Under the pieces are notes generated by a model, which did not search any database, had not been told where the DNA came from, and worked only from the letters and a program-made list of their open reading frames with translations. A program made the position numbers and the translations under genes. A stretch of DNA of 44,215 bases from Nitrospiria bacterium (lineage in GTDB: Bacteria > Nitrospirota > Nitrospiria > DASWJH01): contig DASWJH010000025.1 of assembly GCA_036397255.1 (NCBI GenBank), positions 1-44,215 of the forward strand. Reading direction: 5' to 3'. Within the stretch, counting starts at the first letter, position 1. Every line of letters begins with the position of its first letter. Shown piece after piece: positions 33,086 to 43,867 of this stretch.

Positions 33086-33709
33086 ATGTTCTCTTGGTTA
33101 GTGCGGTTCATTGAACACCATCCAAACCTTCATCGTAGTTTGCTGCTCATTTGGCGGCTGTTTCCGCCTCGGCTGGCGGGATTTCTAAAAGGACTGCTCG
33201 CCAGAAAATGGGTGGTCGGTGCGGTAGCCGTCATGATTGATGAGAATAAATCGCCTCCGGAGGTTCTTTTGGTAGAACACAGCTATCGCCGTAAAGGCGC
33301 ATGGGGCCTTCCCGGGGGGTCACTCGAATCAACTACCGGAAATCCGACCAGAGGTGGCCATGAGGCATTGCCTGACAATGTGGTCGAGTCCGCGCTCCAG
33401 CAGGAAATATTTGAGGAACTCGGTATCGGGATCACGGTGTTTCGCCTCCTGAGAATCGATGCGATACCCTATGTCTCAGAAGAACCGGGCCCCTATCGGT
33501 TGGACTTTTACTTTCGCTGTGCCCCACATGACGGATTTTCACTTTTGCGGCAAGGCCTGAGTTCCGGACAGATCAAACCCCGCTCCCCCGAGATTAAACA
33601 AATCCGCTTCGTCCCTTTGACCGATCTGAGAAAGTTCGACCTATATTCAACCGATTTTAGATTTTTACTTCAAGACCTTCCTCGAATTGAACCTGCCCTC
33701 TTTACCTAG
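33086..33709 (+). CDS. NUDIX hydrolase, paralogue A
   Basis: A 207-residue NUDIX-fold protein. After a hydrophobic, arginine-rich N-terminal helix (about 1-42) comes GAVAVMIDE, VLLVEHSYRRKGAWGLPGGSLE and the NUDIX helix ESALQQEIFEELGIGI, which matches the box GX5EX7REUXEEXGU apart from Gln for Arg and an insertion of about 20 residues between GGSLE and the helix. Such enzymes cleave nucleoside diphosphates linked to another moiety; the substrate is unknown. A copy about 85 percent identical by eye lies at 40445, with a related 5' leader. It is followed immediately by a 9-bp repeat array. Confidence 0.9.
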   Translation: MFSWLVRFIEHHPNLHRSLLLIWRLFPPRLAGFLKGLLARKWVVGAVAVMIDENKSPPEVLLVEHSYRRKGAWGLPGGSLESTTGNPTRGGHEALPDNVVESALQQEIFEELGIGITVFRLLRIDAIPYVSEEPGPYRLDFYFRCAPHDGFSLLRQGLSSGQIKPRSPEIKQIRFVPLTDLRKFDLYSTDFRFLLQDLPRIEPALFT

Positions 33710-33745
33710 TTTATCTGGTTTGTCTCGTTTGTCTGGTTTGTCTGG
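33710..33745 (+). repeat. 9-bp tandem array (TTTRTCTGG), four units, with further units downstream
   Basis: Tttatctgg-tttgtctcg-tttgtctgg-tttgtctgg starts directly behind the NUDIX stop codon. A second run lies at 33846-33881. The rest of the 448-bp gap contains a block tacccatcaccctttactcatcactgtccctaccac that recurs near 43675, and ctcacgtattttaaagggattgcctcaa, which recurs near 38531 (33.97 kb here). No gene is supported. Confidence 0.88.
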
Positions 33746-34100
33746 CCGTAAAGCCCCGAGGGGCTGGGGCCACGGCCCTTTTCGGGGTTGATCTGGTTTT
33801 TCTGATTTGTTTCTACCTCCATCCTCAAACCTCCAACGGATTCCGGTTTGTCTGGTTTATCTCGTCTGTCTGGTTTATTGGTTTTACCCATCACACATTG
33901 CTCATAACGGGTTCTCACTCCAATTACCCATCACCCTTTACTCATCACTGTCCCTACCACGCCTTACGTTTCACGTATTTTAAAGGGATTGCCTCAATCC
34001 TCCAACCTCAAACGCCGTTTCCCTTCCCCTATAACTTCCAACGTTATTTTCCCTCCTTTATTGGACCCTTCCGTTGAAAATCAATAAAACCACATTAAAC

Positions 34101-35024: not shown

Positions 35025-35408
35025 GGTCATCTCTTTCAATAAAAGCGGTTTGCCCAGATCGGATGGAAGGGTATTTCCAATTTCCAAGATGATAGGAGCA
35101 TATTAGAAATACTTAAGGAGAAAGTCAACAAATATTTAGGTGATTTTCGCTTCAGGACAACTTAGGATAAACCCTGAAATTTTAGGACATCTTTAACCGT
35201 TCCTATTGTTAACCGATAAATTGCAGTCCTCGTCTCTTGGGTGTATACAGGGGTCTTCGTATGGTTTGGTTTGTTTGTCTGGTTTTTTTGCCTCCAACCC
35301 TCCCCTCTTACTCCCCCTCCCTCGACGGGAGGGGATGAAGGGGAGAGTAGAGACATCTTTTTGAGAAGACGTTAGGAGGGAGGCGTGAGGAGTTAGGAGA
35401 TTAAAATC

Positions 35409-36161: not shown

Positions 36162-36719
36162 ATGCGTTCCCTCCTTATGGTTGATTTACACTCTATATAG
36201 AAAGCGGAATAAAACCAAAAAACCGATACCATAAAGAAAAGAGTTGCCGAAAGAGGATTTGAACAAGAAAGGGAGTCTTGTCACCTCCTGCCTTCAATTG
36301 CAAATTCCCGGTGATGATACCCCATAAATGGAAGAGAAACAATGAGAAAAGATCAAATGATTTTTTGGTTTGGTTTTTCTAATTTATCTTGTTTTTTTAC
36401 CCCTGGCTCTTTACCCATCGGTTAATTTTTTTTATACAACTAGACAAACCAAAAAACTCAATAAACAAGACAAACTAATTTAATCGGTCCTTACTGAAAT
36501 TCGCTTAAAAAAATGAAATGATCAGAATTTTCTTAAGAGCCAAACAACCCTTTTGGTTAACCAGAGAGTTGTCTTTTTCCGACCCTTTTTACCATATCTT
36601 TACATAACCTTTATTTGTCCTTTAAAGAGAAAGAGCACTTTGGCCACAAGAGAGAGAAAACTTTAACAAAATGAATGCTGGATGGGTTGTTTCAACATCC
36701 AACTAAAGGAGGAAAACCA
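36162..36719. other. AT-rich gap with TTTG-type repeats in both orientations
   Basis: Around 36359-36396 lies a degenerate array of ttttttggtttggtttttct units, and at 36440-36480 the inverse (acaaaccaaaaaactcaataaacaagacaaact), so the two could pair. A hairpin, GGATG-...-CATCC at about 36681-36700, precedes the ribosome site of the 34-residue peptide gene. No other gene is seen. Confidence 0.5.
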
Positions 36720-37181: not shown

Positions 37182-37880
37182 ATGGAAAAATTTACAAAGG
37201 CGCTGAGTCTTTTCGGAATCGGTTGGGGAATGGTTTTTTCCGTTGGGATGGGGGACGTGTCCGCTCAAGGCCTTCATGTACGCGTGGACCCCGCAGATAT
37301 TTCTCCAAGAACAACATTGATGGATGCCGGTTGGAACGGTCGTTACGCAGAAGTGCAGGACTTGGTGAAAAAGTCGGACGGCTACGTCAACATCCAAGAC
37401 CCCAACGGAAGAACCCCTCTGATGGCCGCGTCCATTAATGGCCATGTTTCCGTCGCAGAAGTCCTTTTGGCCAGTGGTGCAAACGTCAATATCAAAGATA
37501 AGAATGGGGAAATGGCCTTGATGCACGCGGCACTGAACGGCCATACCGTGATCGTCCGGGCACTCCTCGCCAAGGGTGCGGATGTCAACGCAAGGACGAA
37601 TGCCGGCGAGACGGCCTTAATGATGGCGGCATCCCGTGGCCATTCCCCTGTGGTCCGAGAATTGTTGCGACATGATGCGGAAATCAACGCGAAGACCGGG
37701 GAGAATGAAACGGCCTTGATGCTGGCTTCCCAATTCGGGCACGTTCGAGCGGTGCAAGCCTTGTTGAAAAAGTCCGACGTCGGCGTCGGATTCAGAAACA
37801 AGGAGGGGGATAACGCCTTGTCCCTCGCGGCGAGGGAAGGGCATAACGTCATCGTGCGGCTATTGGTTCAGCCTAGATAA
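37182..37880 (+). CDS. Secreted ankyrin-repeat protein
   Basis: A 232-residue protein with a signal peptide (about residues 1-29, ending VSAQ) and then six ankyrin repeats at about 43-72, 76-108, 109-141, 142-173, 174-206 and 208-230. The repeats are regular: (G)xTALMxAAxxGHxxVVxxLLxxGAxVNxK. Ankyrin domains bind proteins, so this is likely a periplasmic binding or inhibitor protein, as for the catalase-associated AnkB of Pseudomonas. AGGAGGAG precedes the ATG. The bases here are visibly more G/C-rich than in the flanking gaps. Confidence 0.92.
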   Translation: MEKFTKALSLFGIGWGMVFSVGMGDVSAQGLHVRVDPADISPRTTLMDAGWNGRYAEVQDLVKKSDGYVNIQDPNGRTPLMAASINGHVSVAEVLLASGANVNIKDKNGEMALMHAALNGHTVIVRALLAKGADVNARTNAGETALMMAASRGHSPVVRELLRHDAEINAKTGENETALMLASQFGHVRAVQALLKKSDVGVGFRNKEGDNALSLAAREGHNVIVRLLVQPR

Positions 37881-38820
37881 AAAATTCCGGAAGAAGGAAA
37901 ACCGGCGGGAGACGAACGGTAGGCAAGGCTCTGGGAGTCAAGTGGCCTGGGAACGGGAAAAACCGCTATATTTTGTACCGATGAATTTCGGTACACATGC
38001 CTGTGGTGGAAAATGGGTGGATAACTTTATACGGGAGGGCATTATGATTGGGTCTGAAGGGCCCGTATCGCGGATTTGATTAATTTCTAAGGGAAAAATG
38101 TGATTAAAATCCAGGCAATCTGCTCTTTTCCGACGGTCGATCCTATTTATATTTTAATTTTTATTGAAATTTCCACAGGATTTCCACAGATCGTGGGGAA
38201 AAAGCCGGTGGGCCTGGGGTTAAAGGTTAGTGGTTTGAGGTGACACCTTCAACCTTTCGCTTCCACCCTCTTATCCCCCAACCTCTAACGCTTCCCCTCT
38301 TACTCTTACTCTTACTCTCCCTCCCCCGATGGGAGGCCGTGCCCCCGCCTGCCGGACGGGCAGGTTGCCGACAGGCAGGGGATGAAGGGGAGGGGGTGTC
38401 GTTCCTGAACATCTTCTACCCCTCCTCACCTCCCCTTACAAAGGGGGGGAATTTTTTTGTTGTCCCTCTTCTGTAAGGAGGGACATAAGGGAGGTAGAAG
38501 GTTTTCCCCTCACGCCTCACCCCTCGCATCTCACGTATTTTAAAGGGATTGCCTCAAGCCTCCAACGGATTCCGGTTTGTCTGGTTTTTCATGTTTATTT
38601 TGTTTATTTTGTTTGTTTAGTTTTTTTGGTTTTTTTGGTTTGTCTCAAGGTGTCATTCCCGCGAAAGCAGGAATCCAGGACTTAATATTTTCCACGAACT
38701 GGATTCCTGCCTGCCGGCCGGCAGGCCCGATTGATTCATTCGGGAATGACAGCAAGGGATTATTCCCCTAACGCCTAACCCCTCACGCCTAACGGTTTTA
38801 AAAGGAGTCCTCATTCGACG
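37881..38820. repeat. 940-bp composite repeat region
   Basis: No gene supported. From left to right: an 8-bp inverted repeat tgtaccga/tcggtaca at 37974-37995, C-rich tandem blocks (cttactcttactctta, from about 38284), a cctgccggacgggcaggttgccgacaggcagg palindrome cluster at about 38347-38379, cttacaaagggggg and taaggagggacataagggagg blocks at 38434-38499, a 9-bp-type array at 38575-38645, palindromic repeats at 38651-38678 and 38699-38750 (the latter carrying an inserted cctgccggccggcagg inner palindrome), and C-rich ctaacgcctaacccctcacg near 38768. Confidence 0.85.
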
Positions 38821-40098
38821 CTAAATATTCTGCTCCATCAAGCCTGGCACCCATCCATGGCTGTTCAGTAAGGAGGTTAACATATCGGTTCCCGGCATTC
38901 CCGGCGATTTCGTCAGCGCTTCATCCAGAATTTTAAGAAGATCAAGGACCCTCATGACACGAAAATTGAGTTTCTCCGCATACTCGACAATCTCCGCAGG
39001 AATGGGTTGGTCCCTTTCTTTAAGGTCCGTACTTTCCATGAAGGTGTTTACAATGATGAATGCGGGGAAATCTTCTTTGAGACCGTTCCTGTCTCTGTTC
39101 AGATTGGCCTGACTGACCGCTGCCCGGTCAATATCGGCAGTCAAACCTCTCAGCTCGACAAGCATCCGCCGATCGGCTTGATCATCCAGGAGCCAGAAAT
39201 TATCCTTGAATTCCGGTAAACGTTCGGTCTTTATCCCTAACCCCTTGGAAAAAATTTCCATAACGATTTCGAGAAGTTCTTCATCGCTATCCACCAGGGC
39301 CAATTTGTACCGGTCATATTCGGTCAACTTCCCGTCAATTTCGCTTATTTCTTTCTCCAATGTTTCACGCTGTTTAATCAAGGTTTCAACCTGTCCCCTT
39401 AAAATTCGCTCAGGGCCTAATTTAAAATCCGCCATCCAGGCGGGCACCTCCGAGCATAATTTTTCTTTGAACGATTGGATCGCTTCCGTCAGCGTCCTGA
39501 AAAATTCATGCACACTTTCTTGTCCATTTCCAGCGAAGTGACAGGGTAAAGAGATCACACGGCCGCTCAGGGAAAAACCGACGATTCCTCCCGCTTCCGT
39601 TTGGGCGATGACATCCGGCGGCTCAGGGACCTCAAAAACGATGCGCGCAACACCGTATTTGGAGATATATTTGCTAAATAGCTGACGTTTCACCCTCAAG
39701 TGAACCAGATCGGCCTTGCTGGACGTCAGTTTTATTCCTTTTTCTTTGAGAATGCGGACGGCAAAGTCCAGGTGTGAAAGGGGGCCTAACTCGACACCCG
39801 CATAGGGCTCCACCTTCCTAACCTGAAGGGGTTGAAACAGGAAGCAAACGATTTTATTAGGAAAGTCCATAAAAGTTTGTAGTTGCCGAAGCCTTTTTGT
39901 AAATTCATCATAATGTTCGGGTTCCTGAGCCTCAGGGTCCGTGATAAAAGTACCGAACGGTAGGTATAATAAATCATACTCCGAAAAAGCGGGACATTCC
40001 GAATTTTCAAGATTTCCGAACTCCACCTGGAACGATTTATTGTGGAGTGTCCTCGAGGGATAACCTAGTTTATCTGCGGGGTAGACAAGGGCTCTCAT
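38821..40098 (-). CDS. Unrecognised multidomain protein with coiled coil and PD-(D/E)XK nuclease-like C-terminus
   Basis: 425 residues on the minus strand, alone between repeat blocks. Residues 1-215 form an alpha/beta part that looks like a ligand-binding or amidotransferase-like fold (YDLLYLPFG, GGIVGFSLSGRVISLPCHF). Residues 230-265 are a coiled coil (ETLIKQRETLEKEISEIDGKL). Residues 270-395 resemble restriction-endonuclease-like domains: an acidic pair in LLDD (305-306), RMLVELRG (Glu315, with Arg for the usual Lys), Gln330 and then PAFIIVNTFMES and YAEKLNFRVMRVLDLLKIL. The fold call is inference by eye, and the Lys-to-Arg change may mean an inactive or divergent enzyme. The ribosome site before the ATG is weak. 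Confidence 0.7.
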   Translation of the reverse strand: MRALVYPADKLGYPSRTLHNKSFQVEFGNLENSECPAFSEYDLLYLPFGTFITDPEAQEPEHYDEFTKRLRQLQTFMDFPNKIVCFLFQPLQVRKVEPYAGVELGPLSHLDFAVRILKEKGIKLTSSKADLVHLRVKRQLFSKYISKYGVARIVFEVPEPPDVIAQTEAGGIVGFSLSGRVISLPCHFAGNGQESVHEFFRTLTEAIQSFKEKLCSEVPAWMADFKLGPERILRGQVETLIKQRETLEKEISEIDGKLTEYDRYKLALVDSDEELLEIVMEIFSKGLGIKTERLPEFKDNFWLLDDQADRRMLVELRGLTADIDRAAVSQANLNRDRNGLKEDFPAFIIVNTFMESTDLKERDQPIPAEIVEYAEKLNFRVMRVLDLLKILDEALTKSPGMPGTDMLTSLLNSHGWVPGLMEQNI

Positions 40099-40160: not shown

Positions 40161-40218
40161 TTGTCTAGTTTATTTGGTTTGTCTGGTTTATTTGGTTTTT
40201 TTGGTTTGTTTTGTTTGC
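40161..40218 (+). repeat. 9-bp-type tandem array (degenerate TTTGTCTGG/TTTATTTGG)
   Basis: ttgtctagtttatttgg-tttgtctgg-tttatttgg-tttttttgg-tttgttttg. It occupies the 346-bp gap before NUDIX paralogue B, with a ctccctcctttgtaaggag...aaggagggacataagggagg block following to about 40310. Confidence 0.85.
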
Positions 40219-40444
40219 TTCCAACCTCAAACCTCTCATCATTTCCCTCCTTTGTAAGGAGCACCCTTGCTCTCCTTCTCAAGATACAAGGAGGGACATA
40301 AGGGAGGTAGAAGGCCTTTGCCTCCAACCTCGAACCCATTCTCCCTCTAGTAATTCACGGTTGCATGAAGTCAATGAAAGGGGTAAATTACAGGCGAAAC
40401 GGCAGTCTTACTTATTTCGCTGTCCATAGGAAAGGCAAACAGAG

Positions 40445-41086
40445 ATGTTCGCTTGGATCGTTCGGTTCATTGAGCACCATCCTGAACTTCATCGTGTTTT
40501 GTTGAGTATGTGGCGGTCGTTCCCACCCCGGCTGGCCGGTTTCCTGAAAGGATTGCTCGCCAGAAAATGGGTGATCGGTGCCGTAGCCGTCATGATCGAT
40601 GAGAAAACGTCGCCCCCGGAAATCCTTTTGGTTGAACACAGCTATCGCCCGAGAGGCGCATGGGGACTTCCCGGCGGGTCGCTCGAATCCGCTCCCGGAG
40701 ACCCTGTCAGAGGCGGCCATGAGCCTTTGCCTGACAATGTGGTCGAGTCCGCCCTTCAGCAGGAAGTATACGAGGAACTCGGGATCGGGATAACGGTGAT
40801 CCGCCTTCTTAGAATCGATGCGATACCCTATGTTGCAGAAGAACCAGGCCCATTTCGATTGGACTTTTACTTCCGTTGTGCCCCACGTGACGGATTTTCG
40901 CTTTTGCGGCAAGGCCTGAGTTCCGAACAGATCAAACCCCGCTCCCCCGAGATCAAACAAATCCGTTTTGTCCCTCTGACCGAACTCAAAAAATTCGACC
41001 TGTATTCGACCGATTTCAGATTTTTACTCGAAGACCTGCCGCGGATTGAACCCACCCTGACTATATTGAGGAACAATGGAATCTAA
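40445..41086 (+). CDS. NUDIX hydrolase, paralogue B
   Basis: A 213-residue paralogue of the protein at 33086, about 85 percent identical by eye, with a few more C-terminal residues. It has the same layout: N-terminal arginine-rich helix, GAVAVMIDE, WGLPGGSLE, the ~20-residue insertion, NUDIX helix ESALQQEVYEELGIGI, PRSPEIKQIRFVPLTELKKFDLYSTDFRF. The substitutions between copies are mostly conservative, which suggests both are maintained. About 70 bases upstream are also related, so gene and leader were duplicated together. It is followed directly by a 9-bp array. Confidence 0.9.
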   Translation: MFAWIVRFIEHHPELHRVLLSMWRSFPPRLAGFLKGLLARKWVIGAVAVMIDEKTSPPEILLVEHSYRPRGAWGLPGGSLESAPGDPVRGGHEPLPDNVVESALQQEVYEELGIGITVIRLLRIDAIPYVAEEPGPFRLDFYFRCAPRDGFSLLRQGLSSEQIKPRSPEIKQIRFVPLTELKKFDLYSTDFRFLLEDLPRIEPTLTILRNNGI

Positions 41087-41092
41087 TAACGC

Positions 41093-41160
41093 GTTTGTTT
41101 AGCTTGTCTGATTTGTCTGGTTCATCTGGTTTTTCTTGCTTGTCTTGTTTGTCTTGTTTT
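41093..41160 (+). repeat. 9-bp-type tandem array; right part duplicated at 42221
   Basis: Array of TTTGTCTGG-like units behind the NUDIX B gene. Bases 41108-41174 differ from 42221-42287 at two of 67 positions. The 399-bp gap (41087-41485) also contains a cctgcccgtccggcaggcgggcggcaggcagg palindrome near 41201-41241 and a ccctttacaaagggg block near 41354. No gene. Confidence 0.9.
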
Positions 41161-41485
41161 CGCCTCAAACCTCTTACCTTTAATGTTCTCTTCTTTTCCC
41201 TGCCTGTCCCTGCCCGTCCGGCAGGCGGGCGGCAGGCAGGTTTGTAAAGAGGGACAAAGGGAAGTAGAGGTTTTTTGCCTCACACCTAACGCGTTTTTAA
41301 AAGAAGACTTTAGGGAAGGCAGAAATCCCTTACTTCTCTCTATCCCATCTCACTTCCCTTTACAAAGGGGAAGGACTGGAGGGGGAGGCCCTATAACGGA
41401 GAGGAATTTCTAGTTTCCCTCCAGTTTTGACTCCCGCTTGACGCTTTCAAGAAAAGTAGCTACAATAGCCACTTGAGGTGTGTCT

Positions 41486-41767
41486 ATGAGCATTGTTGGG
41501 GTCAAAGAACTTAAAAATCGTTTAACGCAATATCTCCGCAAGACCAAGCAGGGTGAAAAGGTAATCGTCACGGAACGTGGGAAGCCCATTGCCGTTATCT
41601 CTTCTTCCAGAGGCGCCCTTCCTGCTACCTCGATAGAAATGAAGTTGGCGGACCTGGAACGGGAAGGCAGAATCAGGCTCCCCCAGAAGAAATTCTTAAA
41701 AAAGCTTCCCTCCATTAGAATATCGGGTTTACCCATTTCTGACACGCTCCTTGAGGATCGCGGGTGA
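41486..41767 (+). CDS. Phd/YefM-type antitoxin
   Basis: A 93-residue DNA-binding antitoxin paired with the PIN toxin that follows. The N-terminal Phd fold is clear: SIVGVKELKNRLTQYLRKTKQGEKVIVTERGKPIAVI. The C-terminal half, which would bind the toxin, is less conserved. The frame is open to a GTG at 41480, but the ATG at 41486 is preceded by GAGGTG at a good distance and is used here. Its TGA stop overlaps the toxin GTG. Such pairs are normally autorepressed by the toxin-antitoxin complex at their own promoter. Confidence 0.9.
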   Translation: MSIVGVKELKNRLTQYLRKTKQGEKVIVTERGKPIAVISSSRGALPATSIEMKLADLEREGRIRLPQKKFLKKLPSIRISGLPISDTLLEDRG

Positions 41768-42189
41768 TCTACCTGGATACGAGCGCTTTGATTAAGCGCT
41801 ATATCACAGAAACTGGATCGGACAAAATTCGTTCATTATTCACAAGCCAGGACCATCTGGCAACTTCTAAAGTTGCTTATGTGGAGGTTTATGCTGCCTT
41901 CACTCGCAGGAAACGGGAAGGAGATTTACCCTCAATGCGATATCAGCAGGTGTGCCGGTTGTTTGAACGGGAGTGGCCTGCTTATCTGGTGATCGAACTT
42001 CATGATGATATTCTTCGGTTATCGCGCGATCTGATAAAGAAGCACCCTCTCAGAGGATTGGATGCCATTCATCTTGCTTCCGCCAAATTAATAAAGCAAA
42101 AGATAAGTAAAGAAACCATCTTTGGTTGTGCAGATAACCGACTTTTGAATTCAGCTAAATCCGAAGGATTCAAATTACTGTCTGTATGA
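41764..42189 (+). CDS. vapC: VapC-type PIN-domain toxin ribonuclease
   Basis: A 141-residue PIN-domain RNase, partner of the preceding antitoxin. The acidic active-site residues are present: Asp5 (YLDTSALIKRY), Glu41 (AYVEVYAAF), Asp100 (LRGLDAIHLASA) and Asp124 (GCADNRLLNSA). It starts with GTG overlapping the antitoxin stop (GTGA), showing translational coupling. VapC-type toxins cleave tRNA or rRNA and arrest growth until the antitoxin returns. Both genes look intact, unlike the MNT-HepT pair next to them. Confidence 0.93.
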   Translation: MIYLDTSALIKRYITETGSDKIRSLFTSQDHLATSKVAYVEVYAAFTRRKREGDLPSMRYQQVCRLFEREWPAYLVIELHDDILRLSRDLIKKHPLRGLDAIHLASAKLIKQKISKETIFGCADNRLLNSAKSEGFKLLSV

Positions 42190-42220
42190 CGTTCCTCTTC
42201 CCTTTCTGCGTGACCCCAAT

Positions 42221-42287
42221 CTGATTTGTCTGGTTCATCTGGTTTTTCTTGTTTGTCTTGTTTGTCTTGTTCTCGCCTCAAACCTCT
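42221..42287 (+). repeat. 9-bp-type array, near-identical copy of 41108-41174
   Basis: Two differences in 67 bases from the block behind NUDIX B, including the trailing cgcctcaaacctct. The remaining gap to 42594 holds a frame at 42355-42561 (68 codons) that has no ribosome site and no recognisable motif, so it is not annotated as a gene. Confidence 0.9.
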
Positions 42288-42594: not shown

Positions 42595-43039
42595 TTATAA
42601 GGGCAGGTCCTTCTGCAGACACAACTTATTAAAAATCGTTCGGAGAAATTGATTAGGGTCTTCAATATTTTCCTGCACGACTTCATAATACTTGCTTCAG
42701 TTCTAGTTTTCCATATTCATGGTCGATCAGGTTTCTAAAACCCACCGACTTGACCATCCTTTCTGTCAACTCCACATCCAGGTAACCGTTTTCTTCCAAC
42801 AAGTAGAACATTTCATTTGTACTGCCCGGCACACCGAAGCCCTCCTCGCTGACGATGTGCGCCGCGATGTCGATGCAATTCTGCACAGCCATCTGAAGAT
42901 TGAACAGGATACTTTCCTGCCGGTCGAGATCCGCTATAAACGTCCAAAGGTCCGTGTTTCGTTTTTCGAGAACACGGCTTTAGTGTCTTTTCAAAGAACT
43001 GGCTTTCGCCAGTATCAGATCCAGATCCCTGTCAACCAA
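42595..43039 (-). pseudogene. hepT: HepT-type toxin/nuclease, frameshifted
   Basis: HepT-like sequence can be followed through three pieces. The N-terminus LVDRDLDLILAKASSLKRH is at 43039-42983, read in the MNT frame and ended by a TAA. Then comes VLEKRNTDL...LDRQESILFNLQMAVQNCIDIAAHIVSEEGFGVPGSTNEMFYLL...VGFRNLIDHEYGKLELKQ, with the RNase-type Arg-x4-6-His element (RNLIDH). Past a one-base shift near 42690, the C-terminus YYEVVQENIEDPNQFLRTIFNKLC runs to a stop at 42595. At least one premature stop and one frameshift break it, so a full HepT cannot be made without recoding. An internal Met at 42892 could give a fragment. Confidence 0.8.
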
Positions 43040-43468
43040 TGGATCAACCGCCATCACCTTTCTGATCAATCCCGATTGCATCCGATTCCGGTAGGGACCG
43101 AATTCGGCGATTCTGGCCATCATGACCATTTTATGCCGGGCCAGTTTCCGCTGATCCCTGACCAGAATACATTTTCCCTTTGCAAAGACCTGCTTCCAAA
43201 GTTCCTGGCCGGCAACGTTCAATATCACCGGATCGATATCCTTTCTTAGAATACGGCCCAGCTCTACGAGATATTCGTTTCTCTTTTCACTGAATAAATC
43301 GCGATCTTGGGCATCCAAGACAATGCCAAGATCGACGTCGCTTCGATCACGTTCTTTGCCTCGAGCAAAAGATCCAAACAGATAAACCGCAATGACTTCT
43401 CGTTTGGCGCCGAAATAGGTTCTTATCTTTTCTTCGAGCACATTTTGTTTTGACGAACCGGTTACCAC
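42980..43468 (-). CDS. mntA: MNT-type nucleotidyltransferase antitoxin, C-terminus run into hepT
   Basis: A 162-residue protein with the minimal nucleotidyltransferase motif GSFARGKERDRSDVD (GSx10DxD) that AMPylates HepT in MntA/HepT toxin-antitoxin pairs. It starts with a GTG at 43468 preceded by AGAGG. The family usually ends at about GLIRKVM. Here the frame continues through what looks like the HepT start (VDRDLDLILAKASSLKRH), suggesting that a base was lost near the original stop and the two genes were joined. The enzyme core looks intact; whether it still acts without a working HepT is unknown. Confidence 0.85.
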   Translation of the reverse strand: MVTGSSKQNVLEEKIRTYFGAKREVIAVYLFGSFARGKERDRSDVDLGIVLDAQDRDLFSEKRNEYLVELGRILRKDIDPVILNVAGQELWKQVFAKGKCILVRDQRKLARHKMVMMARIAEFGPYRNRMQSGLIRKVMAVDPLVDRDLDLILAKASSLKRH

Positions 43469-43589: not shown

Positions 43590-43676
43590 TGGTTTTCTGG
43601 TTCATTTTGTTTGTTTAGTTTGTCTGGTTTATCTCGTTTATCTGGTTCGTCTGGTTTATTTGGTTTATCTGGTTTT
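43590..43676 (+). repeat. Longest 9-bp-type tandem array
   Basis: Roughly nine units: tttgtttag-tttgtctgg-tttatctcg-tttatctgg-ttcgtctgg-tttatttgg-tttatctgg, with more degenerate ones before. It is followed by the tacccatcaccctttactcatcactgtccctaccac block found also near 33925, then C-rich ctaacgcctcacc blocks to 43870. No gene in this 399-bp gap. Confidence 0.9.
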
Positions 43677-43867
43677 ACCCATCACCCTTTACTCATCACT
43701 GTCCCTACCACCCCTCACTCTTCACGTATTCTTAAGGGCTTACCTCGAACCTCAAACGTTCTTCGCTTCACGCCCCCTCACCCCTAACGCCTCACCACTC
43801 ACGTTTTTTTGCAAAGAAGGTCTCCACCCTCTAACCTTTAACCTCAAACGATTTTTCCCTCCAACCC

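Follow-up and report, generated by a model that had tools for sequence, protein, structure and literature searches.

Shedu (SduA, DUF4263) is a single-gene defence system in which a variable N-terminus is followed by a C-terminal domain of the PD-(D/E)XK type. PD-T4-8 and its DUF4263 are mentioned in a further study (PMC9519451), and the CoCoNuTs, or coiled-coil nuclease tandems, are presented as type IV restriction systems (PMC11090510). The protein analysed here is encoded in a window of 44,215 nucleotides, by which the whole stretch of DNA under analysis is meant; this window is contig 25 of a Nitrospiria genome of 3.3 Mb (122 contigs, 97% complete). The protein belongs to an unnamed family composed of an N-terminal alpha/beta-looking domain, a P-x-W linker, a coiled coil and a PD-(D/E)XK-like domain, and the linker, the coil and the nuclease-like domain with its invariant Gln were all found in it. 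The reading preferred here, with a probability of roughly 0.52, is that it is a nuclease-fold member of a defence-linked family whose cutting centre is impaired or lost, and that its most likely action is to bind nucleic acid or a partner, cleaving little or nothing.

In the ORF check, the gene was an open frame of 425 codons plus stop on the minus strand. The chance of such a frame is about 1e-9 per frame (3 stops in 64), and one relative aligned to residues 2-417 with E = 4e-33; the ORF is therefore a real gene. The first-pass annotation had placed it exactly, leaving the strand unstated, and the residues that it listed were also located correctly: VELRG at 314-318, PAFIIVN, Asp305, Asp306 and Glu315, with its Gln corresponding to Gln330. 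The gene stands by itself between two neighbours on the plus strand. The protein is present as a single copy in its own genome.

Neither a partner gene nor a defence operon was found in the surroundings of the window copy, where only toxin-antitoxin genes lie at a distance of 1.4-3.4 kb, the nearer pair on the opposite strand. A toxin-antitoxin partnership with the gene was considered and rejected, as these genes are separate units that share no operon with it. The ORF of the HepT component lacks the first ~36 model positions. The flanking repeats consist of a 9-bp GT-rich unit (like GTTTGTCTG) in arrays, and were rejected as ends of an element because such arrays are also found in other intergenic spaces of the contig. 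A 25-base repeat probe, allowing up to 3 mismatches, matched 12 sites in the genome (eight on the window contig and four on three other contigs), and the reversed control matched none. A second NUDIX gene at 33086-33709 is a paralogue of the NUDIX neighbour and has the same orientation; the two are 82% identical over 300 nt and lie 7.36 kb from each other.

Table. Positions of the gene, its predicted domains and active-site residues, and neighbouring features in the window.
Feature	Position	Strand	Remark
Family-protein ORF	38821..40098	(-)	425 aa plus stop; monocistronic by surroundings; homologues align over nearly full length
N-terminal domain, residues 1-215	39454..40098	(-)	Unplaced; alternating hydrophobic strands DLLYLP, KIVCFLF, VISLP
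P-x-W linker (P219, W221) and coiled coil, about residues 219-252	39342..39444	(-)	
PD-(D/E)XK-like domain, residues 252-425	38824..39345	(-)	AlphaFold2 model and restriction-nuclease fold matches
Asn300 (codon AAT), motif II position	39199..39201	(-)	Starts strand beta-2 in model
Glu315, motif III carboxylate, kept	39154..39156	(-)	Strand beta-3 in model
Arg317 (codon AGA), motif III Lys position	39148..39150	(-)	Strand beta-3 in model
Gln330, motif IV helix	39109..39111	(-)	Invariant in family
Ankyrin-repeat gene	37182-37880	(+)	One side of family gene
NUDIX gene	40445-41086	(+)	Other side of family gene
Phd/YefM-PIN toxin-antitoxin pair	41480-42189		
Nucleotidyltransferase-HepT pair	42683-43468		
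9-bp GT-rich arrays	33699-33881, 35259-35290, 36363-36399, 38570-38646, 40163-40221, 41088-41174, 42219-42287, 43595-43690		

The C-terminal domain (residues 252-425) was modelled with AlphaFold2 from alignment A12, whose rows were the window sequence and the related loci only, loci from the genome searches being left out. The phage relatives were entered as fragments, as their whole sequences shifted one strand by a residue. The model reached a mean pLDDT of 80.2 and a pTM of 0.79, compared with a pLDDT of 33 for the single sequence. Its topology was H-E-E-E-H-E followed by further elements, matching the order of helix, three strands, helix and strand described for the PD-(D/E)XK core (PMC1913061). 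The best PDB match in Foldseek was the restriction enzyme EcoT38I, which is weak (E 1.1e-3, TM 0.43). Among the best 50 PDB matches, 29 were restriction-type or related nucleases, as counted by reading the list; these included EcoT38I, BstEII, Ecl18kI, EcoO109I, PspGI, Kpn2I, NucS/EndoMS, Can2, MUS81 and the tRNA-splicing endonuclease. The top viral fold matches were Mrr-type or restriction endonucleases. Because the match list was consistent and the topology agreed, rather than because of any single hit, each of which is weak, the model supports a PD-(D/E)XK-type fold for this domain. The structure prediction and fold comparison that the first-pass annotation had proposed thus gave a nuclease-type fold, in line with its restriction-endonuclease-like C-terminus.

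Upstream of this domain, P219 and W221 were nearly invariant across 16 relatives, and the PDB sequence matches of the family profile were mostly coiled coils at the position before the nuclease-like part, which supports the coiled coil predicted there earlier. The N-terminal domain was unplaced in every library used (Pfam, PADLOC, NCBIfam and PDB). Judged by its hydrophobic strands, it looks like an alpha/beta domain of sensor type, and in profile comparison the domain of the window's subfamily (N1) matched that of one other subfamily (N3) with a probability of 94 and E 1e-7 (reversed control 0.1). For the nuclease-like domain without the coil, comparisons between subfamilies gave probabilities of 92-99, with reversed sequences at 2 or less; in the comparison that bears on homology of this domain, the probability was 92-93 and the reversed controls did not exceed 0.4. 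The matches were weaker when the window sequence was used alone, without close relatives.

The family is rare and patchily spread. The first scan of the genome collection with the single window protein returned no relatives, and tblastn of the protein against plasmids and phages gave no matches. When 396 genomes from the phylum were scanned, two clear homologues emerged (E about 1e-30), and profile searches placed the family in 8 of the 396 phylum genomes and 7 of 270 class genomes, the window's own included. In Pseudomonadota, it was found in none of 397 sampled genomes besides the Methylomonas genome that had supplied the query relative. Further members came from Nitrospira and Methylomonas MAGs, a Fusobacterium record, a haloarchaeal plasmid and two IMG/VR contigs. 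Relatives of the window protein close enough for dN/dS were not found in these sequence searches. Three irregular copies were also observed. At L043:6680-8069, the family gene lies in two overlapping frames, reflecting either a frameshift or an assembly error. A second family gene on the haloarchaeal (Halobaculum) plasmid, at NZ_CP126160.1:28131-29449 (the L031 record), is split into two adjacent frames. At L028:7385-9787 (minus), a PilZ-DUF4388-DnaJ protein ends in the coiled coil and nuclease-like domain of the family, with NVE at motif III.

No curated model for the family was present in Pfam, NCBIfam, PADLOC or PHROGs, in that no member matched, as this family, any model above its cut-off. 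The window protein had no match in Pfam or PADLOC (E up to 10), the models of DUF4263/Shedu and PD-T4-8 included, and PDB sequence searches gave chance hits only for the protein and only chance and coiled-coil matches for the family. A lysine-degradation hit of the window protein in NCBIfam was discarded, as it scored 17.9 of 725 bits, far under the cut-off. When 16 relatives were scanned singly against PADLOC (PADLOC-DB 2.0.0, in which the window protein was unmatched), NCBIfam and PHROGs, none gave a convincing match. Profile comparison with one Mrr-type and one HsdR sequence gave no signal, and none of the profile matches to known nuclease families passed its cut-off. Two relatives did show matches in the right place below the curated cut-offs, L016 to REase_AHJR-like (PF18743; E 0.008) and L002 to HSDR_N_2 (PF13588; E 0.19), the window protein itself matching neither. 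These sub-threshold matches point to a restriction-type fold, short of proof.

The neighbours of the relatives suggested a pattern of defence and mobile-element genes. One family gene overlaps an Mrr-type nuclease gene that is followed by a DNA methylase (L024), and another adjoins a set of type I restriction genes that includes HsdR (L042). PADLOC candidates, which denote candidate rather than proven defence, were found beside three more: PDC-S57 (L025), PDC-S59 (L049) and PDC-S60 (L040). The last two loci are IMG/VR contigs, that of L049 encoding a terminase small subunit as well. In L026 the family gene follows a tyrosine integrase and a resolvase, in L030 it has an integrase and a ClpP-like SDH protease close by, and in L015 it comes after an HTH gene that weakly resembles antitoxins. 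A further copy, L031, is on the haloarchaeal plasmid. The survey of homologues' neighbourhoods, also proposed earlier, thus gave accessory, restriction-modification, prophage and integrative-element settings and not housekeeping ones. This context supports a role of the family in defence or as mobile cargo, and does so more than the surroundings of the window copy.

The active-site columns were then read on alignment A5. At the motif II column, all 14 other sequences covering it have Asp or Glu and only the window copy has Asn, so that the acid expected at the start of beta-2 is missing from this protein. Asp305 and Asp306, previously taken as the acidic pair, both sit in the turn after beta-2, and the motif II position is residue 300 instead. 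For motif III, seven relatives have E-x-K, five have Glu at the Lys position (one of them with Asn as the first acid), one has E-V-T and one has lost the motif; the residue equivalent to 317 is accordingly Lys in seven, Glu in five and Thr or Ile in two. The window protein reads E315-L316-R317, keeping the acid with Arg in place of Lys, and departs from (D/E)-x-K. Because Asn300 and Arg317 replace the motif II acid and the motif III Lys, cutting by the window protein is probably impaired or lost, as judged from the alignment and the model. It is thus doubtful whether the earlier term 'effector', if it implies an active nuclease, suits this copy.

The protein could still be an active effector that cuts invading DNA, with Asp299 as a metal ligand and Arg317 or Arg324 replacing the Lys. 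Residue 299 is acidic here and in most members of the subfamily to which the window protein belongs, relatives with an intact D/E..ExK belong to the same family, and migration of the Lys to motif IV, often as Arg, has been described for several PD-(D/E)XK families (PMC1913061). The Arg324 of the motif IV helix does not count as compensation, however, because relatives that retain the motif III Lys, close ones among them, have it too. Together with the loss of the motif II acid in the window copy alone, this leaves an active nuclease unlikely. The same two replacements might be signs of decay, in which a former defence gene is becoming a pseudogene without present function; each codon (AAT, AGA) could have arisen by a single transition from a common Asp or Lys codon, and split copies do occur among the relatives (L043 and the second Halobaculum gene). 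Such decay was considered very improbable, given that the frame is intact, that P-x-W, Glu315, Gln330 and the hydrophobic core are conserved, and that the protein aligns to relatives over nearly its full length.

A domain without cutting activity might also bind DNA or protein in ordinary physiology, as a regulatory or housekeeping pseudo-nuclease unrelated to phages. The surroundings of the solitary window gene are ordinary genes, and in the PilZ-DUF4388-DnaJ protein of L028 the domain is a tail whose motif III is also broken. The very patchy distribution of the family and the mobile or defence neighbours of most relatives with readable surroundings make this role decidedly unlikely. The preferred reading, in which the protein has the nuclease fold and belongs to a family linked to defence but cuts hardly or not at all, has points against it too: the weakness of its single structural matches, the L028 protein, which is not defence-like, the position of the window copy outside any defence operon, and the candidate status of the PDC families beside its relatives. 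A narrower form, in which selection keeps a dead PD-(D/E)XK domain for a role in immunity, be it as a sensor of nucleic acid, a decoy or a regulator, while other members of the family cut, is a long shot.

Under the preferred reading, the N-terminal domain, which is variable, would probably serve to sense a trigger, and the coiled coil would dimerise two copies and relay the trigger to the nuclease-fold domain. In the family at large, this domain would then act on nucleic acid, the likely role being defence against phages or other mobile DNA. In the window copy, the last step would probably be binding of nucleic acid or a partner rather than cleavage.

The family has a nuclease fold, occurs in bacteria and one archaeon as well as on phage contigs and in integrative elements, is missed by current family libraries, and repeatedly adjoins restriction systems and defence candidates. 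Its catalytic signature varies (ExK, ExE, ExR or lost), providing a natural series on whether dead restriction-type folds serve immunity, and the interest of the window protein is mainly that a member of a family linked to defence has an eroded active site. The CoCoNuTs likewise couple nuclease domains to long coiled coils; however, they are a branch of McrBC systems (PMC11090510), and no McrB-type GTPase partner lies beside the window gene. Shedu and PD-T4-8 are alike by analogy, with one gene, a variable N-terminus and a C-terminal PD-(D/E)XK-type domain, whereas the window protein differs in its coiled coil, P-x-W linker and eroded active site. With the PD-(D/E)XK superfamily, it shares the core fold, the order of elements, the motif III Glu and a polar Gln in the motif IV helix, and departs from it in Asn300 and Arg317 and in matching no single curated family. 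The protein is thus a rare and as yet unnamed form of a superfamily that is itself well known.
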